From: a virus
Virus record (IMG/VR): IMGVR_UViG_3300005293_000011
Span: 988-40,002 of that record
Length of the DNA stretch: 39,015 nucleotides
Direction: 5' to 3' (one strand)
Every line of letters begins with the position of its first letter. Position 1 is the stretch's first letter. Position numbers and translations under genes: made by a program. Shown piece by piece: positions 2,231-39,015 of the stretch. The notes beneath the pieces were generated by a model. That model saw nothing but the letters and a program-made list of their open reading frames with translations, had not been told where the DNA came from and did not search any database.

Positions 2231-2377
2231 TTATGCGAAGTGGTTTACAGCTTTTGAGCAAGTGCAATCTTGTCGAGCGAACTTGATAAGATCACCTTCC
2301 TCGGTTCGAACAATCGCCAAATGTGGTTTTGCCGTCTGCTTCTTATCGAGCTTACGACGTCGACTCTTTGCGGTCAC
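2231..2377 (-). CDS. Small basic protein with CTC motif, GTG start
   Basis: The reading frame is 48 codons and fills the gap between its neighbours. It begins with GTG inside a four-base GTGA overlap with the DUF6353-like gene and ends with TAA just before the next ribosome site. The product starts VTAKSRRRKLDKKQTAK, contains LAIVRTEEGDLIKFARQ and then DCTCSK. The overlap geometry, base usage like the neighbours and lack of other content here support a real gene. There is no clear Shine-Dalgarno sequence, so coupling to the upstream gene is inferred. Confidence 0.65.
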   Translation of the reverse strand: MTAKSRRRKLDKKQTAKPHLAIVRTEEGDLIKFARQDCTCSKAVNHFA

Positions 2378-3237
2378 GACAGGACGTGGAGAATATCACC
2401 ATCAACGTTCGGGTTGAGCCAGATGCTGCGCTCGTGCCCGTTGATGAAGTCGACCTTCACATCGCTGTTCGCCTCGAAGATCCCGAGGTCGACGTAGCCG
2501 TCCCCCTTGCCATCGGTCGTCCAACCAACGATCTGGCCGGGCTTGGTGTCAGGGAAGCCGAGACCGCGGTGTACCTCGTTCAAGAACAGGTGTCCACGAA
2601 CGTTGAGCATGTCGTTGAAGTGCTGCTGCTTGATCACGAGCAACGACTTGTTGACCCCGGCGGAGTTCTCCCAGTACGGGTTCGACTCGTCGAAGAGCAG
2701 GGCGTACGGCGACAAATATCCCTCTTCAGGGAGACGCTTGACCGTGGTCTTCTTGCCCTTCTGCGTGACCGTCTCTTCGACGATACCGAGATATAGATCC
2801 TGCTCCCGCTCCTCACCGATGACCTCACGGACCCGGTTGCGGTAGTTGGAGAACGCCGTCTCGAGCACACCGTAGGCTGCGACAAGAGCCGCACTACGAC
2901 GACGCATGATGCCATGAGCCGCCAGAACCGAGGCAATCGATGCCAAGGCCAGCGAGACCGGTGCACCGTAGAGCTTCACGATGTCACCGGTGTTCTTCAA
3001 ATATGCCCGAACAACCACGATCTGGTTGCCACCTTCGGCAGCCTTGAGGTGTGCATCTTCGAGGCGCTGCTCTGCAACAGCGAGGGTGGGCTCCAGACGG
3101 AGCGTCGACTTGGCGATGAGGAACGTGGAAGCTCCAAAGCCAGCGATGCCGAGACCAGTGAGGATCTCGGGGGCGTACTTCTGTGCTACGAAAGCACCCT
3201 TGTAGCCAAGGGTCTTAACGCTGCGAACAATATCCAT
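2374..3237 (-). CDS. DUF6353-like phage membrane protein
   Basis: The product is 287 residues. The N-terminus carries the diagnostic segment APEILTGLGIAGFGAST (first membrane helix, ~22-45). A second hydrophobic region follows at ~92-115 (SLALASIASVLAAHGIM), then a soluble domain with YGVLETAFSNYRNRVREVIG, EEREQDLYLG and LNEVHRGLGFPD. This matches what I know of DUF6353, a phage membrane family of unknown role. A second member lies at 6028-6783. The ribosome site is AGGAG. The ATG overlaps the stop of the small upstream gene by one base. Confidence 0.88.
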   Translation of the reverse strand: MDIVRSVKTLGYKGAFVAQKYAPEILTGLGIAGFGASTFLIAKSTLRLEPTLAVAEQRLEDAHLKAAEGGNQIVVVRAYLKNTGDIVKLYGAPVSLALASIASVLAAHGIMRRRSAALVAAYGVLETAFSNYRNRVREVIGEEREQDLYLGIVEETVTQKGKKTTVKRLPEEGYLSPYALLFDESNPYWENSAGVNKSLLVIKQQHFNDMLNVRGHLFLNEVHRGLGFPDTKPGQIVGWTTDGKGDGYVDLGIFEANSDVKVDFINGHERSIWLNPNVDGDILHVLS

Positions 3238-4186: not shown

Positions 4187-4383
4187 ACGCCGGGGAGCGT
4201 TTCCGACGTGCCGTTCTCCTTGATGCGCTCGACCATAGCCGAGTCAACGTCCAGTTCGGGCCAACCTTCTCGAATCTGGTTACGGGCGTCCTGAAGCGAG
4301 GGCGCATAGATGTGCTCCGCTTCGTCGACGATGGTGGGGTCCTTCTTGTTCAGCCAGCGGAAGATATAGTGGTACGTTTCCAT
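4183..4383 (-). CDS. Small conserved-type protein of unknown function
   Basis: The product is 66 residues and starts at an ATG sharing one base with the upstream stop (TGATG). The sequence METYHYIFRWLNKKDPT...AEHIYAPSLQDARNQIREGWPEL suggests a compact alpha/beta fold of the type seen in many small phage proteins. No motif gives a function. The gene is tightly coupled to both neighbours. Confidence 0.75.
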   Translation of the reverse strand: METYHYIFRWLNKKDPTIVDEAEHIYAPSLQDARNQIREGWPELDVDSAMVERIKENGTSETLPGV

Positions 4384-4745
4384 CAGACGGCGTCCTTTTC
4401 CTGGATCTTGGTGATCTCGGTTGCCATCTCGTCGAGGACCTTCAGCTGCTCTTCGAGCGTGAGGTCAGCGAGGACCTTGACTGCGTGTTCTGCTGCCGTC
4501 TCGACTTCAGGCTTGGCCTCGAGACGCTTGATGAGGGTGTCGAACTTGCCTTCGACGCGGTCCGAGATGGCAGCGGAGATCGCGCTGGAGACGAAGAATC
4601 CGCCCGCCTTGACCATGAACTTCGAGTAGCGGTTGAGGTCATCCGGCGTGGTGTAGTTGATGACGTTGTGCACGACGGTGCTCGTGCCCGAGAATGCGAC
4701 GAGACCGGTGATGGGCTTTGCGAGCTTGAGGATGGAGATGATCAT
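4383..4745 (-). CDS. Membrane protein with two hydrophobic segments
   Basis: The product is 120 residues. Hydrophobic stretches at ~5-30 (LKLAKPITGLVAFSG...) and ~45-62 (VKAGGFFVSSAISAAISD) are followed by a soluble helical tail rich in Glu and Lys. The layout resembles small phage proteins I have seen beside DUF6353-type genes. A clear ribosome site (CTTGAAAGGGAAAC) precedes the ATG. The conserved 34-bp intergenic element lies about 40 bases upstream, so this is probably the first gene of a transcript that continues to the left. Confidence 0.82.
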   Translation of the reverse strand: MIISILKLAKPITGLVAFSGTSTVVHNVINYTTPDDLNRYSKFMVKAGGFFVSSAISAAISDRVEGKFDTLIKRLEAKPEVETAAEHAVKVLADLTLEEQLKVLDEMATEITKIQEKDAV

Positions 4746-4785: not shown

Positions 4786-4819
4786 GGTCTTCTATTACAG
4801 GGGGTGTCTTTGACGCGAG
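4786..4819 (-). promoter_or_regulatory. Intergenic repeat element, copy 1
   Basis: Copy of the conserved element read on the minus strand as CTCGCGTC-AAA-(spacer)-CTGTAATAGAA. It starts directly at the stop of the 4821-5069 gene and precedes the 4745 gene. The middle (ACACCCCC) diverges from the other copies, whereas CTCGCGT and CTGTAATAGAA are retained. A promoter or activator site is inferred from position. Confidence 0.6.
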
Positions 4820-4820
4820 G

Positions 4821-5069
4821 TCAGTTGATCTGTCGAACTTCGAAAGTATCGGCCCAGATGGGGTCAGAAGCCGTGAGACGGTGCAGGGCTTGTCCTACCG
4901 CCTTCTGTGACTTGAACTGACGACCGTTGAACGCGGCATGACCGGTCATTCGGTTGACGATAATATAACGACCAGAGACCGGCTCGTCATTGTAGAGATC
5001 CATTTGGCGGCAACCCACGTAGACAAGCACGCCAATCACGGCGAGGACGACGATCCAGAAAACAGTCAT
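4821..5069 (-). CDS. Small single-pass membrane protein
   Basis: The product is 82 residues with an N-terminal membrane helix (residues 2-20, TVFWIVVLAVIGVLVYVGC). A soluble domain follows (YIIVNRMTGHAAFNGRQF...). The cysteine at the end of the helix is not in a lipobox I would accept with confidence. The ribosome site TTTTGAAAGGAGC precedes the ATG. The tRNA-like gene lies immediately upstream. No family is recognised. Confidence 0.8.
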   Translation of the reverse strand: MTVFWIVVLAVIGVLVYVGCRQMDLYNDEPVSGRYIIVNRMTGHAAFNGRQFKSQKAVGQALHRLTASDPIWADTFEVRQIN

Positions 5070-5102
5070 TTTGCTCCTTTCAAAAGCATTGGAATATAAC
5101 GG

Positions 5103-5182
5103 TGCGCACGGCGGGATTTGAACCCACGACCTTGTATCGAGAATACCCTCGTACCTGCTCTGCCCAACTGAGCTACGTGCGC
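5103..5182 (-). tRNA. tRNA-like gene with aberrant anticodon arm
   Basis: The acceptor stem is perfect (GCGCACG with CGTGCGC). The D arm is GCTC-AGTTGGGCA-GAGC, and the T arm has a GTGGG/CCCGC stem and a TTCAAAT loop, with discriminator A and no encoded CCA. Between D arm and T stem there are 29 bases instead of the usual 22-23. The best fold there is GTA-CGAG, a six-base GGTATT loop, CTCG, a bulged A, and TAC. No standard seven-base anticodon loop forms, so the amino acid cannot be assigned. It may be a degenerate or unusual tRNA. Confidence 0.7.
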
Positions 5183-5190
5183 AACCCTAG

Positions 5191-5697
5191 CTAGGCCTGG
5201 CGTTCCCGACGAAGGGCCGGCTCGGGCACTGCCTGGGCGAACTGCTCACGAGCACCAGCGACATACTCCGAGTTGGCCTTGGTCTTCTCCTCCGCAGCCT
5301 TCTCGAAGTCGATCTTGTCCTGAGCCTTCTGGATGAGTGCAGCAGGAAGAACACCCTCGATGAAGGCGAGACCCTTCTCAGCATCGTTTTCGAAGAGCGA
5401 GAACAGCCAGTCCGAGTAATATACCGACTGTTCGAACTTCTTGGTGATCTCCGGGCTCTTCTCGAACGTGATGCCGTCGTCATGCTTGATGCCGTACGCA
5501 GCAGCGACGAGTTCGCGGATGAACTTGAGGATCGCTGTGAGGTTCTCGGTGGCGACCAAGTCCTGCATCTCTTCCTGGATGCCGGAAGCGTTGCGTCCGG
5601 AGAAGTCAACCACCTCGATGTCCGAGAGGTGGAAGTACATCACCGCCGTGCGCTTGTGGTCGTCGAAGTCGGTGAATTCAAAGGTCTGACGAATCAT
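5191..5697 (-). CDS. Conserved phage protein resembling tail-assembly-chaperone-type family
   Basis: The product is 168 residues. The N-terminal part reads TFEFTDFDDHKRTAVMYFHLSDIEVVDF. It continues with ENLTAILKFIRELVAAAYGIK, DDGITFEKSPEITKKFEQS and FIEGVLP. I know this pattern from a family in many siphophages that is usually placed with tail genes and proposed as a tail assembly chaperone or structural accessory. Here it lies in the small-gene region, far from the tail operon, so the role is uncertain. The ribosome site is AAGGAAC, and an ATATTC motif sits between it and the ATG. Confidence 0.8.
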   Translation of the reverse strand: MIRQTFEFTDFDDHKRTAVMYFHLSDIEVVDFSGRNASGIQEEMQDLVATENLTAILKFIRELVAAAYGIKHDDGITFEKSPEITKKFEQSVYYSDWLFSLFENDAEKGLAFIEGVLPAALIQKAQDKIDFEKAAEEKTKANSEYVAGAREQFAQAVPEPALRRERQA

Positions 5698-5725
5698 GAA
5701 TATAGTTCCTTAGTTGGGTTGGTTG

Positions 5726-5950
5726 TTACTCGGCGGGGGTGACGTCTTCGGGGTCGACGGTTTCGAGTTCGTCGATCTCGTACTCGTACTTCTCAGCAGG
5801 CTCGAGGGTACGGGCAAGAATATAGCCTCCGGCGGCGAAGCCGACAGCGACTGCGGTCCAGTACAGGACCTTCTTGAGGATGAGCTTCGAGGCCTTCTCG
5901 GCAACGATCTCGACCTCGGGCTCGGACTTGGTGTCAATTACTTCAGGCAT
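5726..5950 (-). CDS. Small single-pass membrane protein
   Basis: The product is 74 residues. An acidic N-terminus is followed by one membrane helix (~31-48, YWTAVAVGFAAGGYILAR) and a strongly acidic C-terminus rich in Glu and Asp. The ribosome site CTTGAAAGGGG precedes the ATG. The upstream 77 bases contain GCGTTC/GAACGC complementary arms and a possible weak relative of the 34-bp element, but I am not confident of it. No family is recognised. Confidence 0.8.
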   Translation of the reverse strand: MPEVIDTKSEPEVEIVAEKASKLILKKVLYWTAVAVGFAAGGYILARTLEPAEKYEYEIDELETVDPEDVTPAE

Positions 5951-6027
5951 TGCATTCCCCTTTCAAGAGAATATAGCGTTCTTACACGGGGCGCTCAACA
6001 ACAGTCGAACGCCATGGGGGTATCTCT

Positions 6028-6783
6028 TCAGCGCCAAATACGATCGTAGTTGAGCTTCGGCGGGTACTCGAAGGAAATATGGACGACGGGCTTCTTGGAG
6101 AGGTCATCCATGACAGGGGTCAGAACTAACGTACAGAAGTAGTCCGGATTCCAGCCAAGCTCGTCACCGATCTCGATCGTGGGGATACCGAGCCGGCTGT
6201 AGAAGTCGTTCAGCGATGCGGCATCCTCATGGAGCGCTCTCTGATTGACATCGTTCTCAGCCTTGCGCAGCGCCTCGTAATCCGACTCGAAATATCGCCC
6301 GGAGATCTTGTCGTAGCACGCCATCTTGGTGTCATTGGACACAATGAGGGTCGTGTTGGGGTGCGCGACAATATCATCCTGAGCGATCTCAGTACGAATC
6401 TGTGCTTCGCGCTTGTCACCAACGACGTGCTTCGTCTTCTCCCGGTATTCCCGGTATGACGACTCCGAGATGGAGAGTGCGCTCATGGCAACCGCTGTTC
6501 GCTTGGAACTGATCTGGTTGGCGCCAAAAATGCAGACCGTGGTCGTCACAGCGCTGGTTGCAGCGGGGACATACAACGGCCATACAAGCTTTGCCTTCTC
6601 CCAACGAGAAATATCCCTGTTGTGCTCCGTTTCGGCGTCCCAGACGCGTCTCAGGGCTTCTGGAGTAGCTTTCACGGCCAGGATCGTAGTCGTGAAAACA
6701 CCAGCGATTCCGAGGCCTGTGAGAATGGCCGGGGAATTGTCCTGAATTAAAGCACGAGCGTTTCTCGCGATTTCAGCGATCAT
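6028..6783 (-). CDS. DUF6353-like phage membrane protein, second copy
   Basis: The product is 251 residues. The N-terminus has NSPAILTGLGIAGVFTT followed by ILAVKATPEALR, the hallmark of this family. A second hydrophobic segment lies at ~50-70 (LVWPLYVPAATSAVTTTVC), and the soluble part contains SISESSYREYREKTKHVVG and FYSRLGIPTIEIGDELGWNPDYF. The C-terminus resembles that of the 2374-3237 protein (a glycine/tryptophan-containing domain). Two members in one phage suggest a hetero-oligomer or duplicated function, which is inference. The ATG lies within the last bases of the upstream GTG gene (11-base overlap). Confidence 0.88.
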   Translation of the reverse strand: MIAEIARNARALIQDNSPAILTGLGIAGVFTTTILAVKATPEALRRVWDAETEHNRDISRWEKAKLVWPLYVPAATSAVTTTVCIFGANQISSKRTAVAMSALSISESSYREYREKTKHVVGDKREAQIRTEIAQDDIVAHPNTTLIVSNDTKMACYDKISGRYFESDYEALRKAENDVNQRALHEDAASLNDFYSRLGIPTIEIGDELGWNPDYFCTLVLTPVMDDLSKKPVVHISFEYPPKLNYDRIWR

Positions 6784-6889
6784 CAGTTTCCTTCTTTCTT
6801 GCCCGGTATTCGATAAGTCCCCAGAGGACGAAAAGTACCGGGATTGCTACAGCTGCGAATGCGAGAGGGATCTCGTCTGGGTAGATCAC
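6773..6889 (-). CDS. Small single-pass membrane protein, GTG start
   Basis: The product is 38 residues: VIYPDEIPLAFAAVAIP, then VLFVLWGLIEYRARKKETDDR. The start is a GTG in a GTGA overlap with the upstream gene. One membrane helix is followed by a positively charged tail, predicting an N-out/C-in orientation. The gene fills the space between its neighbours exactly. No family is recognised. Confidence 0.72.
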   Translation of the reverse strand: MIYPDEIPLAFAAVAIPVLFVLWGLIEYRARKKETDDR

Positions 6890-7197
6890 GCGAATTCTCC
6901 TTCTGCGACGATTGCACGAAGCAGAAGCAGGTAGTTGATGTGATCGCCGATCTTCTCGTCCCACATCTCTTCGGTGTAAATATGGTTGCCGGAGATCATG
7001 TCGTAGACCGAGGTCGTGTGCTTCGCCATCATGCCGGCGAGCGCCTGCTTCTCGGTGATTCCCTGGAGGCGGGCTGCGACCTTGAAAGCACTGAGCCGGT
7101 CAGTTTCAGAGGCGTACTCTTTTTCTTTCCTGATCAGCGTCTCCGAACAGCGCTCGATCTGATCGCCGATGACTTGATTGAATTCTGTTGTCTTCAT
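6886..7197 (-). CDS. Nucleotide-modification-associated (DUF1599-like) protein
   Basis: The product is 103 residues. The sequence IERCSETLIRKEKEYASETDRL, then FKVAARLQGITEKQALAGMMAKH and SVYDMI, matches the pattern of the DUF1599 / Nmad1 family, small proteins common in actinobacteriophages. The family has been linked to nucleotide metabolism or modification. The biochemical role is not established by this sequence. The ATG at 7197 follows TTGAAAGGAG. An 11-bp inverted repeat plus T tract lies in the leader, downstream of a copy of the 34-bp element. Confidence 0.85.
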   Translation of the reverse strand: MKTTEFNQVIGDQIERCSETLIRKEKEYASETDRLSAFKVAARLQGITEKQALAGMMAKHTTSVYDMISGNHIYTEEMWDEKIGDHINYLLLLRAIVAEGEFA

Positions 7198-7227
7198 CAA
7201 TGCTCTCCTTTCAAGAGGCAAAAAGAA

Positions 7228-7277
7228 AATGAGAAGATCAGCCTGCAGTGCTGGCGATATGGGGATCTATCTTCTCA
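7228..7277 (-). terminator. Leader hairpin with T tract before the DUF1599-like gene
   Basis: AATGAGAAGAT (7228-7238 on plus) and ATCTTCTCATT (7267-7277) form an 11-bp perfect stem. On the minus strand it is followed by TTTCTTTTT. It lies between the 34-bp element and the ribosome site of the 7197 gene, so it could act as an attenuator rather than an end-of-gene terminator. Confidence 0.5.
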
Positions 7278-7302
7278 TTACAGGCCATGTTTTTCACGCG
7301 AG
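7271..7302 (-). promoter_or_regulatory. Intergenic repeat element, copy 2
   Basis: Minus-strand reading CTCGCGTGAAAAAC, a four-base spacer, then CCTGTAATGAGAAG. It agrees with the other copies except near its end, where TAATAGAACC is replaced by TAATGAGAAG. That changed part also forms one arm of the leader hairpin. It lies just after the stop of the 7313-7471 gene. Confidence 0.6.
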
Positions 7303-7312
7303 AATATCCCCG

Positions 7313-7471
7313 TTAGAAGAAATGAGGTGGCTGGAAGTCACCAACGTACGGATCTTCGTAACCGGTCATGAAAAGCTTGCCGTCGGCATACCACTTCCAG
7401 ACATAGAGCCACTGGTGAGGATATCCCGGGTTGGGGTAGCGGAAACGTTGAACTCGTCTATTCTTGCGCAT
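7313..7471 (-). CDS. Small aromatic-rich protein
   Basis: The reading frame is 52 codons with ribosome site GATCAAGGTAA before the ATG. It overlaps the end of the upstream gene by 14 bases. The product, MRKNRRVQRFRYPNPGYPH then QWLYVWKWYADGKLFMTGY, ends QPPHFF and is unusually rich in Trp, Tyr, Phe and Pro. Its codon use is like its neighbours. No family is recognised. Confidence 0.75.
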   Translation of the reverse strand: MRKNRRVQRFRYPNPGYPHQWLYVWKWYADGKLFMTGYEDPYVGDFQPPHFF

Positions 7472-7766
7472 TTACCTTGATCCTCGATGTGTGTCCCTCA
7501 GGATATGGCTCTTGGCGGTCCCAAACCGGTCCGGGGAATCGTCCCTTGATGCAGAGATCCGTGCCAGTAGCCTTGCAGGTGGGACAGGGGACAGGACCGT
7601 AGTCGAGGGGCTTCTCGGAAATAGCCCTGTCGTACTTACACGGGCCGTGCCGCAGGTCGGCGGGCACGAACGTCCCACAAGCCAAGCACAGGTACTGGCC
7701 CGCTTTGTCGTTAGCCCCCACGGGAACATCGACGCCACCCGCATTCTTTGTAAATATGTGTGTCAT
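7458..7766 (-). CDS. Small zinc-ribbon-like protein
   Basis: The product is 102 residues. Two cysteine pairs are clear: YLCLACGTFVPADL with a following GPCKYD, and VPCPTCKATGTDLC. This predicts one or two zinc sites. The second of two adjacent ATGs (ATGATG) is chosen because AAGGAG lies at proper spacing from it. A short hairpin lies just upstream in the leader. No specific family is recognised. Confidence 0.78.
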   Translation of the reverse strand: MTHIFTKNAGGVDVPVGANDKAGQYLCLACGTFVPADLRHGPCKYDRAISEKPLDYGPVPCPTCKATGTDLCIKGRFPGPVWDRQEPYPEGHTSRIKVNAQE

Positions 7767-7785
7767 CATTCTCCTTAAAAGAAAA

Positions 7786-7817
7786 AGAGAAAGCACAGGA
7801 TTAGTGTGCGTTCCCTT
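7786..7817 (-). terminator. Short hairpin with pyrimidine tract, copy A
   Basis: On the minus strand, stem GCACA and TGTGC (7793-7809, seven-base loop) is followed by TTTCTCTTTTTC. The 32-bp block is identical to 8454-8485. It lies after the stop of the 7824-8066 gene and before the ribosome site of the 7766 gene. A weak terminator or processing hairpin is inferred. Confidence 0.5.
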
Positions 7818-7823
7818 TTGGAA

Positions 7824-8066
7824 TTACTCTGCTTCGGGGGTGATCCAAAGCGAGTTCTTGGCTTCCTTGGCGGCCTTGCGGTTAACGTTCCAGGTACGTG
7901 CCTTGCCGAGAGCGGAAGCACCGACGGACAGGAGTCCGATGGCAGCGATCGGGATTGCGATGCTGACTACGGACACGAGTGCGGAGGTGGCGACCTGCTC
8001 TTTGACAGAGGGGTACATGTTGACGGTAACGGGCGTGGTCTCGGGGGAGGTTTCGATCTCGTTCAT
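7824..8066 (-). CDS. Small single-pass membrane protein
   Basis: The product is 80 residues. The ATG at 8066 follows CGAAAGGC and the 34-bp element. One membrane helix (~28-53, ATSALVSVVSIAIPIAAIGL...) is followed by a basic tail (KARTWNVNRKAAKEAK). Longer frames upstream overlap the repeat element and are rejected. The codons are strongly biased and lack the AATAT motif, as in the highly expressed structural genes, which hints at strong expression. Confidence 0.82.
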   Translation of the reverse strand: MNEIETSPETTPVTVNMYPSVKEQVATSALVSVVSIAIPIAAIGLLSVGASALGKARTWNVNRKAAKEAKNSLWITPEAE

Positions 8067-8091
8067 GGTATTGCCTTTCGTGGGTATGAGT

Positions 8092-8125
8092 GGGGTTCTA
8101 TTACAAGCCCGGTTTTTCCCGCGAG
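8092..8125 (-). promoter_or_regulatory. Intergenic repeat element, copy 3
   Basis: Minus-strand reading CTCGCGGGAAAAACC, then GGGCTTGTAATAGAACCCC. It lies between a hairpin (8138-8155) and the ribosome site of the 8066 gene. The TAATAG-to-ATG distance is about 30 bases, which would give a very short leader if this is a promoter. Confidence 0.65.
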
Positions 8126-8130
8126 GCAAA

Positions 8131-8164
8131 AGAGAAACCACAGGTTTAAGTGTGGTGTCCCTTG
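8131..8164 (-). terminator. Short hairpin with pyrimidine tract, copy C
   Basis: Stem CCACA and TGTGG (8138-8155), followed on the minus strand by TTTCTCTTTT. It is related to the hairpins at 7793 and 8461. The outermost pair is G-C in those copies and C-G here, a compensatory change that supports a real RNA structure. It lies between the stop of the 8183-8293 gene and repeat copy 3. Confidence 0.55.
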
Positions 8165-8182
8165 TGAGGTCTAACTGGGATG

Positions 8183-8293
8183 TCAGCGGGAATAGCGAAT
8201 TTCGCGAACTAGAATCCAGATGAGCCAGAGTCCACCGGTGAGGGTGAACAGGAGGGCATCTGCGATGAAGTTCCAAAAGCCGTACTTGCGCAT
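8183..8293 (-). CDS. Small conserved phage membrane protein (GGLWLIW type)
   Basis: The product is 36 residues: MRKYGFWNFIADALLF, then TLTGGLWLIWILVREIRYSR. The pattern FWNF...D...TGGLWLIW.LVRE is a widespread small membrane protein in actinobacteriophages. The role is unknown to me. The ribosome site ACGAAAGGAAAACCC precedes the ATG, with repeat copy 4 immediately upstream. Confidence 0.85.
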   Translation of the reverse strand: MRKYGFWNFIADALLFTLTGGLWLIWILVREIRYSR

Positions 8294-8310
8294 GGGTTTT
8301 CCTTTCGTAG

Positions 8311-8344
8311 GGGGTTCTATTACAGACCCGGTTTTCTACGCGAG
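8311..8344 (-). promoter_or_regulatory. Intergenic repeat element, copy 4
   Basis: Minus-strand reading CTCGCGTAGAAAACC, then GGGTCTGTAATAGAACCCC. It lies directly after the stop of the 28-residue cysteine protein and 18 bases before the ATG of the 8293 gene. No separate terminator lies between it and that stop. Confidence 0.65.
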
Positions 8345-8346
8345 GG

Positions 8347-8433
8347 TTAACCACAGCCAATCGCCGTACACATTCGACATGACACCGATTCCGTGATTGG
8401 GTCAATTTCTTTGTCGCAACATTTGCAATGCAT
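8347..8433 (-). CDS. Tiny zinc-knuckle-like protein
   Basis: The product is 28 residues: MHCKCCDKEIDP then ITESVSCRMCTAIGCG. Six cysteines, in C-x-CC and C-x-x-C pairs, predict a minimal zinc site. A convincing ribosome site (TTGAAAAGGAAAC) precedes the ATG. Similar short C-x-C-C...C-x-x-C proteins are common in phages. Frame and start are clear, but the short length limits confidence. Confidence 0.7.
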   Translation of the reverse strand: MHCKCCDKEIDPITESVSCRMCTAIGCG

Positions 8434-8453
8434 TCTAGTTTCCTTTTCAAAAA

Positions 8454-8485
8454 AGAGAAAGCACAGGATTAGTGTGCGTTCCCTT
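8454..8485 (-). terminator. Short hairpin with pyrimidine tract, copy B
   Basis: This is an identical 32-bp duplicate of 7786-7817. The stem GCACA/TGTGC lies at 8461-8477, followed on the minus strand by TTTCTCTTTTTT. It lies after the stop of the 8502-8720 gene and before the 28-residue gene. Confidence 0.5.
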
Positions 8486-8501
8486 GTAGTTCTCGTGAGG
8501 G

Positions 8502-8720
8502 TTACTTGGTGAGGTTGTGGACGGCGACTTCAGCACCGCTCTTGAGTGTGACGGCCGCGAGTACGGTCAGCACAGACGCGACGACGATGATCTTGACCGT
8601 TTCCTTTACTGTGGCAGTAAAGATGTTGGCTTGATCCTGGTCGATGAGTTTGTGGTTGACGTGGACTTGCAGGCCCTTCGTCTCGGAGGAGTCGGGGGTG
8701 GAGTGTTTGAACAGGCCCAT
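8502..8720 (-). CDS. Small single-pass membrane protein
   Basis: The product is 72 residues. A soluble N-terminal half (HSTPDSSETKGLQVHVNHKL...) is followed by a membrane helix at ~43-60 (KIIVVASVLTVLAAVTL) and a short tail. The ribosome site CGAAAGGAAACC lies between repeat copy 5 and the ATG. It has the same one-gene unit layout (element, ribosome site, gene, hairpin) as its neighbours. No family is recognised. Confidence 0.82.
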   Translation of the reverse strand: MGLFKHSTPDSSETKGLQVHVNHKLIDQDQANIFTATVKETVKIIVVASVLTVLAAVTLKSGAEVAVHNLTK

Positions 8721-8740
8721 GGTGGGTTTCCTTTCGTTGA

Positions 8741-8773
8741 GGGGTTCTATTACAGGCCCGGTTCTTGACGCGT
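8741..8773 (-). promoter_or_regulatory. Intergenic repeat element, copy 5
   Basis: Minus-strand reading ACGCGTCAAGAACC, then GGGCCTGTAATAGAACCCC, 20 bases before the 8720 ATG. The 8774-8837 stretch upstream holds no gene that I can support. It contains a short CCCGGGAGGGA region and then the terminator-like hairpin. Confidence 0.65.
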
Positions 8774-8837
8774 TTTGTTTTTCTGGAGAATCCCTCCCGG
8801 GGAATTTTCACATGTCGTTTTTCGAAAGGAAAAAGGA

Positions 8838-8876
8838 TAGTCCCTGTTCTAAGTGTTTAGTTTAGAGCAGGGACTA
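8838..8876 (-). terminator. Rho-independent terminator after the 8909-9187 gene
   Basis: Arms at 8838-8852 and 8862-8876 pair as TAGTCCCTG with CAGGGACTA, plus five more pairs after one mismatch. On the minus strand they are followed by TCCTTTTTCCTTT. This is the most convincing terminator in the window and separates the 8909-9187 gene from repeat copy 5. Confidence 0.75.
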
Positions 8877-8908
8877 CCATTTTGAATTGTCTGGGTCGGG
8901 GGAGCGGG

Positions 8909-9187
8909 TTAGCTCTTACGAATCCAACTGAATGCCTTGGAAGTGATGACGTTCAGACGCTCGTGATGCAGGACTGCCCCAATACCAACGAGATTTGTCA
9001 GCGAACCGATGACGACGTCGGTCGAGGGGACCTTGGACTGCGGTTTAGGCAGCAGTGGGGTCAACTTGACGACGGCATCGAGGTTCTTCTGATAGATGTC
9101 GGAGGTGGTGGGGAGTTCGGTCATCTCGGCGATGAGGCGGTCGATCTCTTCTTTGACAGGGTTGGGCTTACGTTCGATAGCGAACAT
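8909..9187 (-). CDS. Small protein of unknown function
   Basis: The product is 92 residues. The N-terminal half is charged and helical (PVKEEIDRLIAEMTELPTTS). The C-terminal half has a weakly hydrophobic stretch (TDVVIGSLTNLVGIGAVLHHE, ~57-77) that might be a membrane helix. The ribosome site TTGAAAGGAGAACC precedes the ATG. It is flanked by repeat copy 6 upstream and the terminator at 8838 downstream, so it is a likely monocistronic unit. Confidence 0.8.
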   Translation of the reverse strand: MFAIERKPNPVKEEIDRLIAEMTELPTTSDIYQKNLDAVVKLTPLLPKPQSKVPSTDVVIGSLTNLVGIGAVLHHERLNVITSKAFSWIRKS

Positions 9188-9203
9188 GGTTCTCCTTTCA
9201 AGA

Positions 9204-9237
9204 GGGTTTCTATTACAGGCCCAGTTTTTCGCGCGGG
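9204..9237 (-). promoter_or_regulatory. Intergenic repeat element, copy 6
   Basis: Minus-strand reading CCCGCGCGAAAAACTG, then GGCCTGTAATAGAAACCC, 16 bases before the 9187 ATG. It follows the long hairpin at 9256-9300 that ends the tail/holin operon. It is the rightmost copy found. Confidence 0.65.
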
Positions 9238-9305: not shown

Positions 9306-9674
9306 TTAGGGCTTCGGTGCGTCGGTCGCAACCTTCAGCAGGACGTACCCCTTGTTTTCAAGGGCATCCAGGTCACCGACGTCGAAGTTGTACTTCGTGG
9401 GTACGGCGGGGTTCGCTACATCAGTGATAGCGAGCGTACCGTCGTACTTGCTGTCGCTGACGTCATACTGACGCTTCGAAATGAAGAGCAGCACACCGCC
9501 AAGCGTTGCCAGGATGGCGAGTGTTCCGACGACCTGCTCACCATAGGGCAAGCCCCAGATCTGAGCGAGACCGAAGTACGCGGTTCCGAGAGCCGGAAGG
9601 CCGAGCTTTACGATGTTGTTCAGCACGTCGTAGGCTCCATCCGACAGAATGGGCGTAGAGTTTTCATCAGGCAT
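9306..9674 (-). CDS. Putative holin (phage r1t type)
   Basis: The product is 122 residues. The core LGLPALGTAYFGLAQIWGLP, then YGEQVVGTLAILATLGGVLLFIS, closely follows the r1t holin family (PF16945 pattern): two membrane helices separated by a short WGLPYGEQV turn. The C-terminus is soluble. Holins of this class permeabilise the cytoplasmic membrane so that endolysin can reach peptidoglycan. It is the last gene of the tail operon. The endolysin lies 27 kb away at 36.6-37.6 kb. The ribosome site AAGGAGGAAC is strong. Confidence 0.85.
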   Translation of the reverse strand: MPDENSTPILSDGAYDVLNNIVKLGLPALGTAYFGLAQIWGLPYGEQVVGTLAILATLGGVLLFISKRQYDVSDSKYDGTLAITDVANPAVPTKYNFDVGDLDALENKGYVLLKVATDAPKP

Positions 9675-31521: not shown

Positions 31522-34359
31522 TTATGCGATAGCGACTTGGAATGCCAATCCACTTTGTGAGCTAATATCGCTAAAGACGCGAGTTTCAGCGGGTGCAAGA
31601 TAATCTCCGACCCATAGAGACGTATGGCTAGCAACGTTAGGGTATATCATGGTCCGCATTACGGTAGGTACATCCACCGTGGGCGGACCCGGTACCGCGG
31701 CGGCGCTCTTAGTAGCAGTAATTACCAAGGCTCGTTGACCTATAAGCATAGGTACCGCAAGGGCTGTTGTCTTACCACTAGAGCCTGGTCGAACTGTGAC
31801 TACGCCGGCAGTCATCGACGTAACACCCCGATAAACAGTCGTAGCGTACGTTGAATATCCACCTGCGGAGTTGTTATAGTTGACTGTTCCAGCCGTAATA
31901 TCCGAGGCCGAAAGAATCTTCCACCCAGCCCAGAAACTGCCGGTCCCCATGATCGTTGTTGGCACAAGCGTTGTAAACTCGGCAGCGGTGATCACGGTGC
32001 TAGTACCGTTACCGGCATTTACACAAAGGAATATAGCATCGCCCGCTATAGCGCCAGCAGGTATCGCGATGTTGTTGATCGTGTTTGGAACTTCTGCTGA
32101 GCGTGCCGAAATAAACACCGGCGTTGGCTGGGCCCCTGGTTGTGGAACCGGCGCAATAACTCCGGAACCGGAGCACTGCACCATTGTGGCGCCCTTAGCG
32201 ATAGCAGTATCGTACATTAGCTGCGTGCTAGCAATATGGCCGACAACGGGCTTACCAACAGCCAGTGCGGTGTCCCAATAGGACTGTGCTGCGTTGATGT
32301 CCATACCAATAGTCGTCCATGCAGGGTTTCCGGCCCAGGTAGCAAAGCCGCCATCATCCACATCTGTTGCGTAGAAATAACCCCAAGTGGCTGCCCATCC
32401 ACGGTTCAAAGCTTCCTGCGCGCGCAGTGCACCAGCGCTACTCGCCCCTGTGAACTTCCAAATAAGACGTGATTTGTCTACGCCAGAAGCGTCTACAACG
32501 TCCAAGAAGTTCGGATTCTGGTTGATCGAGTTCTTCGGATCAAGGATAAGCAAGTGAGTCTTGCCGTACTTGGCGAGGAACGCATCCAATCGGAAATAAG
32601 GACGCGAAGGCCAACCCGGAATCGGCCGTAGCACGTTGTTGTAGGTCGCCTGAATTTGAGCCCATGTAAGTGTGTTCGCATTCGGGGAACCAGTAACGCC
32701 GGCTGAGGCATCGAACGTGGGGTCGTGCATACCGAACCACACACCGTCGGAAGACCGCTGGCATGACATTTCGAGAGCACTGAATCCACGCATCACACTC
32801 TGGTCATAAGCGTATTCGCTCATCTCAGCGTAGTTTGCAGATCCACCACGATGCGCCCAAGCGGTTCCCGGTGTTGCGAGCATGGCTGCAACATTTGGAA
32901 GCCCCTTGTTCCAGATACGTAGAGAAGTCGGCGTAACTCGTTCACTAGCGCCGTTCAGCATGGACGCGTAAGCTCGAGAGCCATCGCCCTTCTTTACAAC
33001 AAGCCCGACTGGTGCAAACCCATTCAGAGCAATGCTGCTGATACGGTTAGCAGTCGACGGGGCAGTCCACAAAGTAGAATGTGCAGCCACAGTCAACGAT
33101 CCGCCAGCATAAATCGGGTTGTAGCCTAACCATGCGGTGGTTCGTGAACTGGCTGTACTCTCGATCAAGGTGTTCTGGAAGTTGGCCATGTGGGTGAAGC
33201 CTGGTGCAGTTGTCTCGGGACGGTAGGAAAGCCCCGCAGTACGCTCTTCCCCCGCAAAGGTCAAAGCCAAGTACGGCGTTTTCGTTACCGTGTATTCTGC
33301 GGTAGTCGTGTTCCCATAAGAATCACCCCCACCAACGGGGCTAGACAGATCTACATTCTTCACTACGAAGATCGCAGCAAGGCTTCGAGCACTCGTAAAG
33401 TTACCGAACGTGTAGTCGACAGCCGTCTCTGCCGCAGCAGAAGGAATCGGTTTGTAGAACAGTCCCTGTGCACGGTCAGCTGATCCGTTACCGCCCCCAT
33501 CGCCACCTCGAGCCCAACCTGCCGGTATAGCTACTTCGCCGCCGCTGGGTACTAGACCTTGCGAGCGGACAGCAGCAATCAGAAGATCACCGTCTACCAG
33601 GTTGGTTGGTTTTGGGATGGTGATTGACGTTCCAGAAGAGGTGCCGACATACGCTGGGGCGGTTGGCATAGGTACACCAACAGGTAGTGGTAGGTTGCCT
33701 CCGGGGATTCCAAGCTGCAGACCTGCACCGTTAGGTACAGTGTTCGCGGCAAACATTACAGAAACGTCGCCACTAGCGGTAGGCGCTGCCAACTCTTTCG
33801 TAAAGAAAGAACCCCACTCGATACTCAATTGCTGGTCGGTCTTCTCCAGGAGGAGATTGAAACCATTTTGAGTGATGTAGGACCAGGGGCCGGCAGCCGT
33901 CGTTGCTTCCTGCATGATTGCAAGAGCCAGCGACGGGACTGTCGGTGTGACGCTCGGCATGGTGATGTCGCCGCGGTTTACTGGCGCCTGGTTTCCTCGG
34001 TACCACACAGGGCCGACCAACACGTCTGAAAGTGTCGTTACGTTGTGGTCGTAGAAAGACGCAGAGAGTGCGAAGACGCCGACGGCCGTACTAAGTGAGA
34101 TGACATAGTCTGAGTACGGTGTAGCCAGAGAGTATCGCCGAATAGCAACGGTCATTCGACGTGTGTTGACAGAGTAATTCAGGACCGGAGTCCACCACCC
34201 CTTGGCTTCGATGTCTGTGAGGGTCGGCGTACCGCCCGCGCCCAGCAAGACTACAAGAAGATCGCCTTCTTGGGTGCCCTGGGGTACTGGCACCGTCACC
34301 GTAGTTGCGCCACCGTTCGTTAGTAGAACAGTCGTCGCTCGGACTTTAGGAACGGTCAT
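31522..34359 (-). CDS. Tail fibre/spike with glycerophosphodiesterase domain
   Basis: The product is 945 residues. Two related beta domains (~1-225 and ~230-450, each with a GDLL-type strand) precede a GDPD-like domain at ~490-740. That domain carries the expected motifs: HRG (503-505), Glu530 and HD (545-546). A further beta domain ends it (~745-945). GDPD domains in tail proteins are thought to cut glycerophosphate-type cell wall polymers such as teichoic acids, which would aid adsorption or entry. Target chemistry is inferred. The gene lies beside a collagen-like fibre gene. Confidence 0.88.
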   Translation of the reverse strand: MTVPKVRATTVLLTNGGATTVTVPVPQGTQEGDLLVVLLGAGGTPTLTDIEAKGWWTPVLNYSVNTRRMTVAIRRYSLATPYSDYVISLSTAVGVFALSASFYDHNVTTLSDVLVGPVWYRGNQAPVNRGDITMPSVTPTVPSLALAIMQEATTAAGPWSYITQNGFNLLLEKTDQQLSIEWGSFFTKELAAPTASGDVSVMFAANTVPNGAGLQLGIPGGNLPLPVGVPMPTAPAYVGTSSGTSITIPKPTNLVDGDLLIAAVRSQGLVPSGGEVAIPAGWARGGDGGGNGSADRAQGLFYKPIPSAAAETAVDYTFGNFTSARSLAAIFVVKNVDLSSPVGGGDSYGNTTTAEYTVTKTPYLALTFAGEERTAGLSYRPETTAPGFTHMANFQNTLIESTASSRTTAWLGYNPIYAGGSLTVAAHSTLWTAPSTANRISSIALNGFAPVGLVVKKGDGSRAYASMLNGASERVTPTSLRIWNKGLPNVAAMLATPGTAWAHRGGSANYAEMSEYAYDQSVMRGFSALEMSCQRSSDGVWFGMHDPTFDASAGVTGSPNANTLTWAQIQATYNNVLRPIPGWPSRPYFRLDAFLAKYGKTHLLILDPKNSINQNPNFLDVVDASGVDKSRLIWKFTGASSAGALRAQEALNRGWAATWGYFYATDVDDGGFATWAGNPAWTTIGMDINAAQSYWDTALAVGKPVVGHIASTQLMYDTAIAKGATMVQCSGSGVIAPVPQPGAQPTPVFISARSAEVPNTINNIAIPAGAIAGDAIFLCVNAGNGTSTVITAAEFTTLVPTTIMGTGSFWAGWKILSASDITAGTVNYNNSAGGYSTYATTVYRGVTSMTAGVVTVRPGSSGKTTALAVPMLIGQRALVITATKSAAAVPGPPTVDVPTVMRTMIYPNVASHTSLWVGDYLAPAETRVFSDISSQSGLAFQVAIA

Positions 34360-34361
34360 TA

Positions 34362-35474
34362 TCAGGCCTCGGCTTCGATGATCAGTGTGTAGGCGGGCGT
34401 ACCACCAGGCACTGTGCCACCTTTCGGAATGTAGACTGCACGAGCCCAGCCAACAACATTCTGCCCAGCGATCGGGAGAATGTCATTCCAGGGAGTCGTG
34501 CCAACGGGACGGTACTGAATGGCGGAGGCGCCGGCTTGCATCTCGGTGCCGGGACCGGTAGCCCCTTGCGGGCCAACGGAACCAACGTTGCCGGTGTCAC
34601 CCTTAACGCCTTGGACACCCTGAGTTCCCTGCGCGCCGGTGTCACCCTTAAGGCCTTGTGGACCCGTAGATCCGGTGAGACCAGTGTCGCCCTTGAGGCC
34701 TTGAGTACCCTGAGGCCCAGTGAGACCGATCGGACCTTGAAGCCCCTGAGGACCGGTGAGACCGATCGGACCTTGAAGCCCCTGAGGGCCGGTGAGTCCA
34801 GTGGGTCCGGTGAGTCCGGTGTCACCTTTAGCGCCTTGAGGACCAACGGGACCGACAGGACCCTGCGGACCGACCGGGCCTTCTGGACCCTGAGGACCCA
34901 TAGGTCCTACGTCGCCATCAAGTCCACCTTCAGCAGCTTCTGCACGATCGGCAGCAGCTTCTGCTCGGAGGGCTGCAGCTTCTGCTTCGTTCTTGTAGCC
35001 GATGACCTCGTCAGTGACAAGCACCCACTCAGCAATGTCGGCACCAGGGTTCGAAGCTACGGGAACAACCGTAGCGAGGTCGATGACCCCACCGTCGGAA
35101 CCGGTCAGTGCGAAGGAGCGAGAGGGCATCCGGTTGCCGGGGCGAATAACGACGTCCCAGGTCCAACCGGTCGGCGTGATCTCAGGGCTGAAGCCCCAGG
35201 CCAAGACGACACCAGGATTCACGTCACCCGGAACAACCAAATAACCGTTGGCGTCAGTCGTAGCAGTGATGACTTCCTGGAATACGGTTACTGGGTCGTC
35301 TGCTCCGGGGACGCGGAAAACCGCAGGCCGAAGAGTCGGGGTGAAGGTGACGATTGCACCCACGATGGGGAGCATCTCGGGAGCCTGGTCTGGATCGTCC
35401 GAGTCAATGACACCTTGAGCAAGACGACCAACGACGGTGAACGTCTTAACCTCGGCAGGATATGTCTCAGCCAT
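34362..35474 (-). CDS. Collagen-like fibre or appendage protein
   Basis: The product is 370 residues. The N-terminal ~175 residues form a carboxypeptidase-regulatory-like beta domain ([35 protein letters not shown]). A short Ala/Glu coiled coil follows ([20 protein letters not shown]). About 125 residues of uninterrupted Gly-X-Y triplets then form a collagen-like rod, and a ~45-residue C-terminal cap completes it. The repeat DNA is internally repetitive and prone to length change. It probably forms a trimeric fibre. Confidence 0.87.
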
Positions 35475-35856
35475 TGTAGTTCCTCACAGGAGTTGAGTGG
35501 TACGAGTGCGTGCTGTCGTCAGCAACGTTGAGTCGCCACTCCATCTCCTTGATCTCGGTACGGATAGCTTCGATACCGTAAGAAGTCTGAGGTGGGTCGA
35601 GAATAAGGCGAACACTCATGCAGACGAACGTCTTGACCATGTTGATGTTCTGCTTCCCCGCAAGGAAGTCAGCCCAGGTCTCAGTTGCGTCCTCGATTTG
35701 GAATGCGTAGTCCTTGGGACCGACGCCAAGCTGGAACAGCTTCGAGAATACGCTGTTGATGTGCATGATGATGTCTTCATCGAATGCAGTGTAGTCCTCG
35801 TCCATACCGATTACTTTCTTAACGGACGTGAGAATGCTTTGATCTGCGATAGGCAT
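35467..35856 (-). CDS. Conserved connector-like phage protein
   Basis: The product is 129 residues, starting [20 protein letters not shown] with ribosome site AAAGGAGGGATC; an in-frame start six codons upstream is less well placed. [34 protein letters not shown] and [10 protein letters not shown] match a family known as head-tail connector-like in Gram-positive phages. It lies outside the connector group at 24 kb, before the terminase, which is unusual. It overlaps the next gene by eight bases. Confidence 0.82.
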
Positions 35857-35870
35857 GTCGATCCCTCCTT

Positions 35871-36284
35871 TCACCAGAGGTTAGTGTCTCCAGGTCGCCG
35901 TTCGACGATCCGCATTGGCAAAGAATCCGGCGAGCCATAGTGGATGGCATTGTGCGTCGGATGAGTTGTGGTAATCAGGAATTCCGGGTCTAGGATCTCG
36001 GGGTTGTAGTCATAGACATCCTCGACCGTCATTGGGTTCATGTGGTGAACCGTGATACGATCGTGAATCTCATAGCCTTCAACCCCGAGATCGAGACCGC
36101 GGTCTCTTGCGATACAGTGGTTGCGAACTTGTCGCCACTCTCGAGAGATGTAGAACCGCTGATTGAGGTAGCGCTCATAGTTGAAAGTGGCTAGCCCAAC
36201 ACTTGATCGAATCGACAGGTACTCAAACCGTTCATCGAAGCTATCGAGTTGGACTAGCTCACTGTAGGTACGCTTCTTAGGCAT
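35871..36284 (-). CDS. HNH endonuclease
   Basis: The product is 137 residues, starting MPKKRTYSELVQLDSFDERF. The HNH-like core contains ITVHHMNPMTVEDV (H80, H81), then TTTHPTHNAIHYG (H108, H111, N112, H115). The family is common beside terminase genes in Gram-positive phages and is thought to aid DNA packaging or cleavage. An ATG three codons upstream (MGTMPKK) is an alternative start. It overlaps the upstream gene by eight bases, consistent with joint translation. Confidence 0.87.
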   Translation of the reverse strand: MPKKRTYSELVQLDSFDERFEYLSIRSSVGLATFNYERYLNQRFYISREWRQVRNHCIARDRGLDLGVEGYEIHDRITVHHMNPMTVEDVYDYNPEILDPEFLITTTHPTHNAIHYGSPDSLPMRIVERRPGDTNLW

Positions 36285-36612
36285 CGTACCCATGGTCTTC
36301 ACCGCGGTAAGCCTGCAAAGCTTGCAGCACCTTGGCGTAGTCTTCTTCTCGAGAGCGAGCAAGCGTGATGTCCTCGTTCTGTACACGAAGACGCTCAGCT
36401 TCCAAGCGCAGCTTAGTCTCTTCGAGACGGTTGCGAGTGCTTCCGAGTTTGAGATAGTGGCTGAGAACCTGGGACGACACGGTTCCCTCGGCGATCTGCC
36501 TTTCGGCAAGATCGGTAGCCGCAGCAATCAGCTGATTCTCACGCGCTTCCGGCGTCTTGGCCGGGGGACGTTGCCGTCGAACTGGTTGTGTGGCCTTGTC
36601 CGAGGAAACCAT
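36277..36612 (-). CDS. Coiled-coil partner of HNH, possible small terminase-type protein
   Basis: The product is 111 residues. PPAKTPEARENQLIAAATDL, HYLKLGSTRNRLEETKLRLEAE and NEDITLARSREEDYAKVLQAL match a conserved family next to HNH genes in Gram-positive phages. A helical N-terminal part and a long coiled coil resemble small terminase subunits, but that role is inference. The two genes overlap and probably act together. The ribosome site is GGAGGTGATGAC before the ATG. Confidence 0.8.
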   Translation of the reverse strand: MVSSDKATQPVRRQRPPAKTPEARENQLIAAATDLAERQIAEGTVSSQVLSHYLKLGSTRNRLEETKLRLEAERLRVQNEDITLARSREEDYAKVLQALQAYRGEDHGYDA

Positions 36613-36647
36613 GTCATCACCTCCTGGTTTCTATACCATTTTGAACG

Positions 36648-37562: not shown

Positions 37563-37834
37563 TACTTACCTTCCACTTCGTCAGCCTTGTTGAGGCCTTC
37601 TTCTCGAGTCGTGCCATCGTCGTCGGACTCCTCGACGACCGTGTGGTCGTAGTCGGACGGGTTGAACTCGACGGGCTCAGCGGCCTGCGTCTTGTCACCC
37701 TCGACGGTGATGGGCTTGGATGCCTTGGTCTCGTCGGGAGCGACTTCCTCAGCGGGGATCGGTGCCGAATCCTTGGGCTCGGACTTCGGAGCAGCCTTTG
37801 CGGTCTTAGCCGCGGGCTTCTTTGCAGCAGTCAT
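37562..37834 (-). CDS. K/A/P/E-rich low-complexity protein
   Basis: The product is 90 residues. The N-terminus is basic (AAKKPAAKTAKAAPKSEPK) and the remainder strongly acidic. The protein is probably disordered. It lies between the endolysin and a three-helix membrane protein, with 1- and 4-base overlaps and a strong AAGGAG ribosome site. Low-complexity proteins of this kind are common near virion genes in actinophages. No function is assigned. Confidence 0.8.
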   Translation of the reverse strand: MTAAKKPAAKTAKAAPKSEPKDSAPIPAEEVAPDETKASKPITVEGDKTQAAEPVEFNPSDYDHTVVEESDDDGTTREEGLNKADEVEGK

Positions 37835-38806: not shown

Positions 38807-38851
38807 GTTTCCTCTCTCGTTCTGGTCAGTTGTTGTACAGTTTCCGGTGAC

Positions 38852-38969: not shown

Positions 38970-39015
38970 CAACCGGATTGTTTCTACGCCGAGTCCCCCC
39001 GGGGATATTTTTGGG

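Follow-up and report, generated by a model that had tools for sequence, protein, structure and literature searches.

A Repeated, Rigidly Spaced Intergenic Block as a Candidate Promoter of a Phage-Encoded, Single-Chain RNA Polymerase

Why would a virus place the same short block of DNA in front of one small gene after another? In the window (i.e., the whole 39,015-nucleotide stretch of viral DNA analyzed here), an array of small genes that follows the tail and holin genes contains six such blocks. A sequence-only reading had found their placement suggestive of a promoter and had offered a dedicated activator, a phage-modified polymerase, or a site comparable to the start-associated sequences (SAS) of cluster K mycobacteriophages as options. 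Here, we ask what the element is, how widely it occurs, and what might read it.

Six copies of one block

All six copies were located on the minus strand at the places first reported, and they share a single 30-bp block, CTCGCGnnAAAAACnnnnnnTGTAATRRRA, in which the spacing from CGCG to TGTAAT is the same in six of six (the CGCG box lies 14 nt before the hexamer). A PWM built from these copies scores each at 42 to 52 bits, and nothing else in the 39-kb window exceeds 3.1 bits, so the scan yields no seventh copy there; the string CTATTACAR is observed 5 times versus 0.19 expected from shuffles. The claim that TGTAAT is invariant holds for every copy, and the CTCGCG said to be shared gives way to AACGCG in the copy at 8745. 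Other details of the initial description need correction: AGAAC, reported as the usual continuation of TGTAAT, follows it in only three of six copies (the others have AGAAG, AGAAA, and GAGAA), and the copy at 7277 reads TGTAATGAGA, not TGTAATAG.

Each copy precedes a separate Shine-Dalgarno sequence. Counted from the first base 3' of TGTAAT, the ATG lies 24, 25, 28, 33, 48, and 79 nt away, in keeping with the 15 to 80 bases first estimated. The features are as follows (copies were located by PWM).

9208..9237, minus strand: candidate promoter element copy 1 (CCCGCGCGAAAAACTGGGCCTGTAATAGAA); leader of 24 nt; before gene 8909-9187
8909..9187, minus strand: small gene after copy 1; 92 aa, phrog_5818
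8745..8774, minus strand: candidate promoter element copy 2 (AACGCGTCAAGAACCGGGCCTGTAATAGAA); leader of 28 nt; before gene 8502-8720
8502..8720, minus strand: small gene after copy 2; 72 aa, hydrophobic segment
8315..8344, minus strand: candidate promoter element copy 3 (CTCGCGTAGAAAACCGGGTCTGTAATAGAA); leader of 25 nt; before gene 8183-8293
8183..8293, minus strand: small gene after copy 3; 36 aa, hydrophobic
8137..8156, minus strand: terminator-like stem-loop (ACCACACTTAAACCTGTGGT and TTCTCTTTTG); ends the unit upstream of copy 4
8096..8125, minus strand: candidate promoter element copy 4 (CTCGCGGGAAAAACCGGGCTTGTAATAGAA); leader of 33 nt; before gene 7824-8066
7824..8066, minus strand: small gene after copy 4; 80 aa, hydrophobic segment
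7273..7302, minus strand: candidate promoter element copy 5 (CTCGCGTGAAAAACATGGCCTGTAATGAGA); leader of 79 nt; before gene 6886-7197
7221..7276, minus strand: copy-5 leader hairpin, terminator-like (GAGAAGAT...ATCTTCTC); MFE -13.8 kcal/mol, z -2.26
6886..7197, minus strand: small gene after copy 5; 103 aa, phrog_6802
4790..4819, minus strand: candidate promoter element copy 6 (CTCGCGTCAAAGACACCCCCTGTAATAGAA); leader of 48 nt; before gene 4383-4745
4383..4745, minus strand: small gene after copy 6; 120 aa, phrog_7539

The copy-5 leader hairpin begins at the first base 3' of TGTAAT and has a U-rich tract at its end.

The element in other phages

The element is not a local repeat; it is shared with hundreds of phage genome fragments. 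The block, usually with TATAAT as its hexamer, is found in at least 119 stretches of viral contigs, compared with 3 for the reversed-pattern control (the first pattern used for collection was too strict and returned mostly unrelated matches). Cultured relatives with the element include phages of Streptomyces, Microbacterium, Arthrobacter, Gordonia, Rhodococcus, and Curtobacterium; the scan covered seven cultured actinophages, and in each of them the element lies within the same gene array. The window's proteins are about 30 to 73% identical to those of these phages, the terminase being 73% identical to that of LibertyBell. Thus, the search for copies in related phages that the sequence-only reading had proposed finds them in abundance. 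Other copies in relatives precede tRNAs and short structured RNAs without a start codon (an Rfam search assigned the short RNAs that follow some copies to no family), and one lies about 900 bp upstream of the operon of the polymerase discussed below. Pattern matches in bacterial genomes are mixed: some are polymerase-bearing prophages (L136, L142, and L149), and others look like chance in AT-rich genomes. Our literature search, whose reach did not extend to the ReqiPepy6 paper (Summer et al. 2011), found no published description of the element or its motif string.

The larger collection also shows how the element is built. The box and the hexamer are each conserved, the 5 to 6 nt that separate them are variable in sequence, and the spacing is rigid: searches with the box only found 309 hexamers at offset 6 and none at offset 5 or 7, and genomes not chosen by the element gave 57 and none, respectively. 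TATAAT is the most frequent hexamer (243 of 326 box matches), TGTAAT occurs in 20, and TCTAAT and TTTAAT are also seen. The second base of the hexamer differs among copies (91% of the 318 elements have A there), the third is almost invariant, and the RRRA directly after the hexamer is conserved. In Lactococcus phages 1706 and P118, there are 12 and 9 copies, respectively, of a diverged core, WWWWACAnnnnnTATARTRRR, without TCGC, and the polymerases of these phages show about 40% identity; that is, a diverged enzyme goes with a diverged site.

A polymerase that accompanies the element

What could read such a block? Relatives encode phrog_4291, a single-chain RNA polymerase of about 900 aa with a GADFDGD motif and HTH domains at both ends, one of them sigma-region-4-like (HTH_23 in 13 of 13; a sigma70_r4_2-type match in 12 of 13). 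A sequence search against solved structures returned only HTH-type and designed-protein matches and was uninformative on the fold, so a fold comparison was needed. The predicted structure matches QDE-1 (Foldseek 1e-9; Z 17) and also the polymerases of phages P23-45/P74-26 (Z 12.6 to 13.7); as modeled, the enzyme has a QDE-1-like, two-barrel fold.

Gene and element occur together. Of 50 viral records with the element (many are fragments), 38 encode phrog_4291; conversely, 22 of 30 records chosen by the polymerase alone contain the element (65 copies; reversed pattern, 0), on the strand of the polymerase gene in 22 of 22. Among 30 random viral records, neither was found (0/30 each), and every one of the seven cultured actinophages scanned has the polymerase. 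The window's own record, a 40-kb fragment, has no polymerase gene, so the link between the two rests on relatives; we infer from these that the window's phage carries the gene in the missing part. The phages with a close terminase and those with the polymerase form nearly one set (238 versus 250 records), which leaves no polymerase-less close relative for comparison and means that the co-occurrence could reflect shared ancestry. Nine genomes compared have in common tail, membrane, replication, recombination, and polymerase genes. Of the conserved proteins in this set, only the polymerase has recognizable HTH domains, and the comparison of the nine turned up no small, conserved DNA-binding protein; the conserved families phrog_4079 and phrog_2152 have no assigned function.

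Proposed mechanism and start site

The presence of the element in many relatives, its co-occurrence with a phage polymerase gene, and its rigid spacing all support the promoter reading, and we consider it likely that the element is the promoter of a phage-encoded, single-chain, two-barrel RNA polymerase of the QDE-1/YonO class. This enzyme would recognize the element directly. In this model, the polymerase's own HTH domains would probably read the TCGC-to-TATAAT block as one rigid site, the polymerase would melt its TATAAT end, and transcription would begin on the purine after TATAAT, give or take about one base (+1 being the G or A in RRRA). Six small genes in the window would be driven singly, one copy each; in relatives, other copies would drive tRNAs, short structured RNAs, and the polymerase operon itself, in which case the first polymerase molecules would have to come from another source. 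The proposal in its most general form seems to us moderately probable: a sigma-free promoter, present in hundreds of phages across several bacterial phyla, that a single-chain relative of cellular RNAP reads directly via its sigma-region-4-like and N-terminal HTH domains, with TATAAT abutting the start, and that serves small genes one at a time as well as tRNAs and short structured RNAs. Of the three options first offered, a phage-modified polymerase came nearest, with the amendment that the evidence favors a separate, phage-encoded, single-chain polymerase over a modified host enzyme.

The predicted start site draws on RNA folding. Terminator-like hairpins have their bases at -1/0 in 16 of 31 cases and none further upstream, and the RRRA bases take part in stems. 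Moreover, exchanging terminator arms among the 7-mers from base 0 weakens the pairing (z 11); the variable spacer upstream of the hexamer gives no such signal in the same comparison. This covariation would place the start at the TATAAT end rather than 7 nt further on, where sigma70 would have it. Two limits apply: the pairing test allows read-through RNA, and TATAAT itself does not vary, which leaves a range of about -7 to 0 for the start.

Alternative explanations

Could the host RNA polymerase do this work instead, its main sigma factor using TATAAT as a -10 and a phage activator on the TCGCRnnWWWWACA box replacing the -35, in the manner of MotA at T4 middle promoters? The commonest hexamer is indeed the sigma70 -10 consensus, box and hexamer are conserved separately, and phrog_4079 and phrog_2152 could supply the activator. 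The sigma70 scan, which seeks -35 and -10 boxes 16 to 18 nt apart, calls none of the six window copies, as the earlier observation of no standard -35 would lead one to expect. The layout would be compatible with that of a MotA-type promoter, an activator box near -30 plus a sigma70 -10. All six also lack A at hexamer position 2. In a sigma70 -10, the base at position 2 is the one needed most, and position 3 is best tolerated. The element shows the reverse, varying at position 2 and hardly at position 3; its spacing never shifts by even 1 nt; and RRRA, which would be untranscribed at a sigma70 promoter, is conserved and found in stems. The element is, in addition, common to phages of very different hosts, the nine-genome comparison brought no conserved small DNA-binding protein to light, and the pairing result disagrees with a MotA-type start. 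We therefore regard host polymerase plus activator as unlikely, and the dedicated activator suggested at the outset is less favored on the strength of the rigid spacing, the variable second base, the pairing that puts the start at the TATAAT end, and the polymerase being the one conserved protein with recognizable HTH domains.

Two further readings fare worse. That the element is no promoter, being a repressor operator or a posttranscriptional 5' leader element (stoperator or cluster K SAS-like), would suit its many intergenic copies in one orientation adjoining gene starts; we think it highly improbable given that the block is asymmetric, with a TATAAT-like box at its end and then purines, and that copies also stand before tRNAs and short structured RNAs, which have no start codon. 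Leader stems begin just 3' of the block, which would leave most of it outside the RNA, and the annotations read for these phages note no integrase or repressor. Least probable of all is a reading in which a phage sigma factor or a T7-type polymerase would use the promoter, in spite of the rigid single block ending in TATAAT and then RRRA, a layout like that of T7/SP6 promoters. The T7-type polymerase domain (PF00940) was found in 0 of 50 element-bearing records, a search run without a positive control, and in 0 of 15 related records, where the T7 control was found; sigma-70 region 2 was found in only 2 of 35 genomes with the element or polymerase.

Implications

Two-barrel phage polymerases resemble a simple ancestor of all cells' multisubunit enzymes, and the well-conserved element offers a candidate promoter for a large family sister to YonO, a type without a worked-out promoter. 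Given that this family occurs in phages that are easy to culture (Arthrobacter Circum, Gordonia Duffington, Streptomyces LibertyBell, and Lactococcus 1706), recognition without a separate sigma factor is directly testable. About 250 database entries now labeled "HTH protein" or "RNA-dependent RNA polymerase" are likely DNA-dependent transcription enzymes, and the element would mark which genes such polymerases control. Element and polymerase together could also become a new orthogonal pair for gene expression, comparable to T7.

Comparison with known systems

T7 and SP6 promoters are rigid blocks of about 20 to 30 bp with a TATA-like end before a purine start, present in many copies on one strand and read by a one-chain phage polymerase. 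The difference is in the enzyme, which here has a two-barrel, cellular RNAP-like fold rather than the T7 fold.

The cluster K SAS is likewise a repeated asymmetric element in one orientation before many small phage genes. It is, however, a 13-bp sequence, GGGATAGGAGCCC, directly upstream of the start codon, and about half of the SAS have a 17-bp inverted repeat (PMC3203893). The element matches neither this motif nor its position next to the start codon and has no sequence or layout in common with it, so the likeness first suggested proves to be poor. The gene arrays that harbor the element are the arrays of small membrane-protein genes described as unusual in Arthrobacter clusters AM/AU and Rhodococcus phages Pepy6/Poco6 (Klyczek et al. 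2017, PMC5513430), a paper from which the words promoter, motif, and intergenic are absent.

Also comparable are the virion and nonvirion polymerases of Thermus phages P23-45/P74-26, whose mapped starts are preceded by dedicated promoter motifs, AT-rich for the virion enzyme and GC-rich for the nonvirion enzyme (Chaban et al. 2024, PMC10770324). These phage enzymes too consist of a single chain with a two-barrel fold and have motifs of their own (compared here by description only), but they belong to other polymerase families and other hosts. YonO of SPbeta is a single-chain, cellular-RNAP-related enzyme that transcribes a set of phage genes and reportedly produces a single late operon from a single start; its promoter sequence and factor requirement were stated to be unknown in 2017 (Forrest et al. 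2017, PMC5467207). The element was absent from the 35 kb of SPbeta tested, the mapped YonO start not being placed exactly on the SPBc2 record. YonO belongs to phrog_8308 and the enzyme here to phrog_4291, their similarity being very distant and the profile comparison weak, and the two differ in use: YonO serves one operon from one start, whereas in phrog_4291 phages the element stands before many single genes.

The element and its geometry

The window covers most of a viral record of 40,002 bases, and its six copies of the element sit in an array of small genes located downstream of those for the tail and holin; the minus strand carries the array genes and the matched larger tail and packaging genes. 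In register on that strand, the copies read [CT]CGCG..[AG]A[AG]AAC......TGTAAT, with the same block-to-block distance in all six, and a small gene that has a Shine-Dalgarno sequence of its own begins (ATG) 24 to 79 nt downstream of each. A matrix built from the six scores them at 42 to 52 bits and the rest of the window, on either strand, at 3.1 bits or less; a sigma70 scan called none of them.

A search with the upstream box alone gave 326 distinct matches, in 318 of which a TATAAT-like hexamer follows at an offset of exactly 6 nt; no match has one at offset 5 or 7. The same holds in genomes that were not selected by the element (57 hexamers at offset 6, none at 5 or 7). Such rigid spacing is expected of a single protein reading one DNA face, not of sigma70. 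With the first base past the hexamer counted as base 0, conservation spans −25 to +3 and drops to background after that.

Features of the window
2374-3237 and 6028-6783, minus strand: two phrog_2152 phage membrane proteins (LibertyBell likewise has two)
5101-5182, minus strand: tRNA-Pro, anticodon AGG, in the small-gene region, no element directly upstream
7273-7302: element copy with a hairpin like those of the short-RNA copies (5′ bases after the hexamer in the stem)
7782-7817 and 8450-8485: two identical 36-nt terminator-like stem-loops (AAAAAGAGAAAGCACAGGATTAGTGTGCGTTCCCTT)
9306-9674: holin-like gene
34362-35474, minus strand: protein with long Gly-X-Y collagen-like repeats, encoded beside a 945-aa protein that is partly phosphoesterase-like

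On the coding strand of the window, ATATT outnumbers AATAT by 75 to 4 (whole minus strand), an extreme strand bias; no ATATT occurs in that strand's first 6.8 kb (plus 32237-39015). The bias recurs in LibertyBell (60:2), Damascus (56:0), Duffington (126:6), ReqiPepy6 (138:5), and Daddyjeff (37:0), is absent in Circum (83:100), and is about 1:1 in the Lactococcus phages. Codon bias may explain it, or a polar signal acting in recombination, packaging, or transcription.

Spread of the element

The relaxed pattern CGCGNNAAAAACNNNNNNTRTAATNRRA matched at least 119 viral-contig stretches, several of those among the matches listed having 2 to 10 copies; read backwards as a control, it matched 3. In bacterial genomes (257 Gb searched) it matched 48 stretches, some of them prophages carrying the phage polymerase discussed below (L136, L142, and L149). 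Seven cultured relatives chosen by homology, not by presence of the element (Streptomyces LibertyBell, Microbacterium Damascus, Arthrobacter Circum and Shepard, Gordonia Duffington, Rhodococcus ReqiPepy6, and Curtobacterium Daddyjeff), all have it, in about 4 to 14 copies each, all on the transcribed strand and nearly all within the equivalent small-gene array. In two Lactococcus phages the TCGC part is missing, and an inner core, WWWWACAnnnnnTATARTRRR, occurs in the forward direction 12 times in 1706 and 9 times in P118 (backwards pattern, 1 per genome; shuffles, 0.25 to 0.3); for natural variation, this diverged pair is the best case at hand. In Lachnospiraceae genomes and viral contigs (L131, L136, L142, L157, L158, L031, and L079), a near-identical element precedes a gene whose product begins MDYFLAVNDKQ; the polymerase, too, is encoded in L136, L142, L031, and L079.

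Putative short RNAs and the proposed transcript start

Downstream of 86 of 467 element copies, a T-tract precedes any Shine-Dalgarno sequence. We posit, from sequence, that these copies make short structured RNAs, tRNA transcripts among them; in ReqiPepy6, an annotated tRNA (L198:26207-26279) lies inside such a unit. The RNAs would be 25 to 110 nt, each closed by a stem that pairs its 5′ bases with the arm of the terminator, and Rfam assigned no family to those scanned.

Copies before structured RNAs or tRNAs, among others
L198:26198
L121:6853
L061:13107
L201:21387
L197:17169
L011:857
L015:9415

In these units, the descending terminator arm pairs with the first bases after TATAAT; stem bases reach −1/0 in 16 of 31 hairpins and lie further upstream in none. 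In a covariation test, the fit was better with a unit's own arm than with swapped ones; the signal peaks at base 0 (z 11), and the variable spacer upstream of it shows none. Most simply, the RNA would start directly after TATAAT; at sigma70 promoters, it starts about 7 nt later. This difference from sigma70 would favor recognition by the phage's own polymerase.

The candidate polymerase

In LibertyBell, the gp78 protein, which is listed as an HTH protein, is a member of phrog_4291, a family with the name "RNA-dependent RNA polymerase," and has the GADFDGD catalytic motif and two HTH matches, one near either end. A structure model of the member from L030, a contig that also bears the element (mean pLDDT, 80), matches QDE-1 (Foldseek, 1e-9; Z 17 over 351 residues) and, at Z 12.6 to 13.7, the Thermus phage polymerases. 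Helix-turn-helix matches occur in all 13 members scanned and sigma70_r4_2-type matches in 12.

In the annotated phage collection, 250 records contain the family. It is encoded in 38 of 50 element-bearing records, and 22 of 30 records selected by the polymerase have the element, always on the polymerase's strand (reversed pattern, 0); 30 random viral records had neither. A search of element/polymerase records found no T7-type polymerase, and sigma factors are rare in these genomes. Across nine genomes, the conserved genes are those for tail, membrane, replication, recombination, and polymerase, with no conserved small DNA-binding protein found. Every close relative found encodes the polymerase, so shared ancestry is not fully separable from function. 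No polymerase gene was found in the window's fragment, from which that region is missing; based on close relatives, its phage probably encodes one (its terminase is 73% identical to LibertyBell's, and most other matched proteins are about 30 to 55%).

We favor a model in which this single-chain polymerase would read the element directly and begin RNA at the base immediately after TATAAT. Copies about 900 to 940 bp upstream of the polymerase gene, whose operon contains a VRR-nuclease, an exonuclease, and the polymerase, suggest positive feedback once the first polymerase molecule is present. In most copies near the operon, TATAAT is followed by AGAAGG, where small-gene-array copies have GAGACCCC, and by a leader hairpin; this may reflect an attenuator or autoregulation.

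Copies near the polymerase operon
About 900 to 940 bp upstream of the polymerase start: L230:about 60, L214, L244, L236, L068, L108
Further copies: L196:39406, L201:43261, L202:41154

Comparison with known systems

A phage polymerase with dedicated promoters is already a known kind (T7, Thermus P23-45, and YonO). Thermus P23-45 has such promoters (PMC10770324), and the promoter of YonO is stated as unknown (PMC5467207). The element sequence, polymerase family, and layout reported here appear undescribed in the literature searched.
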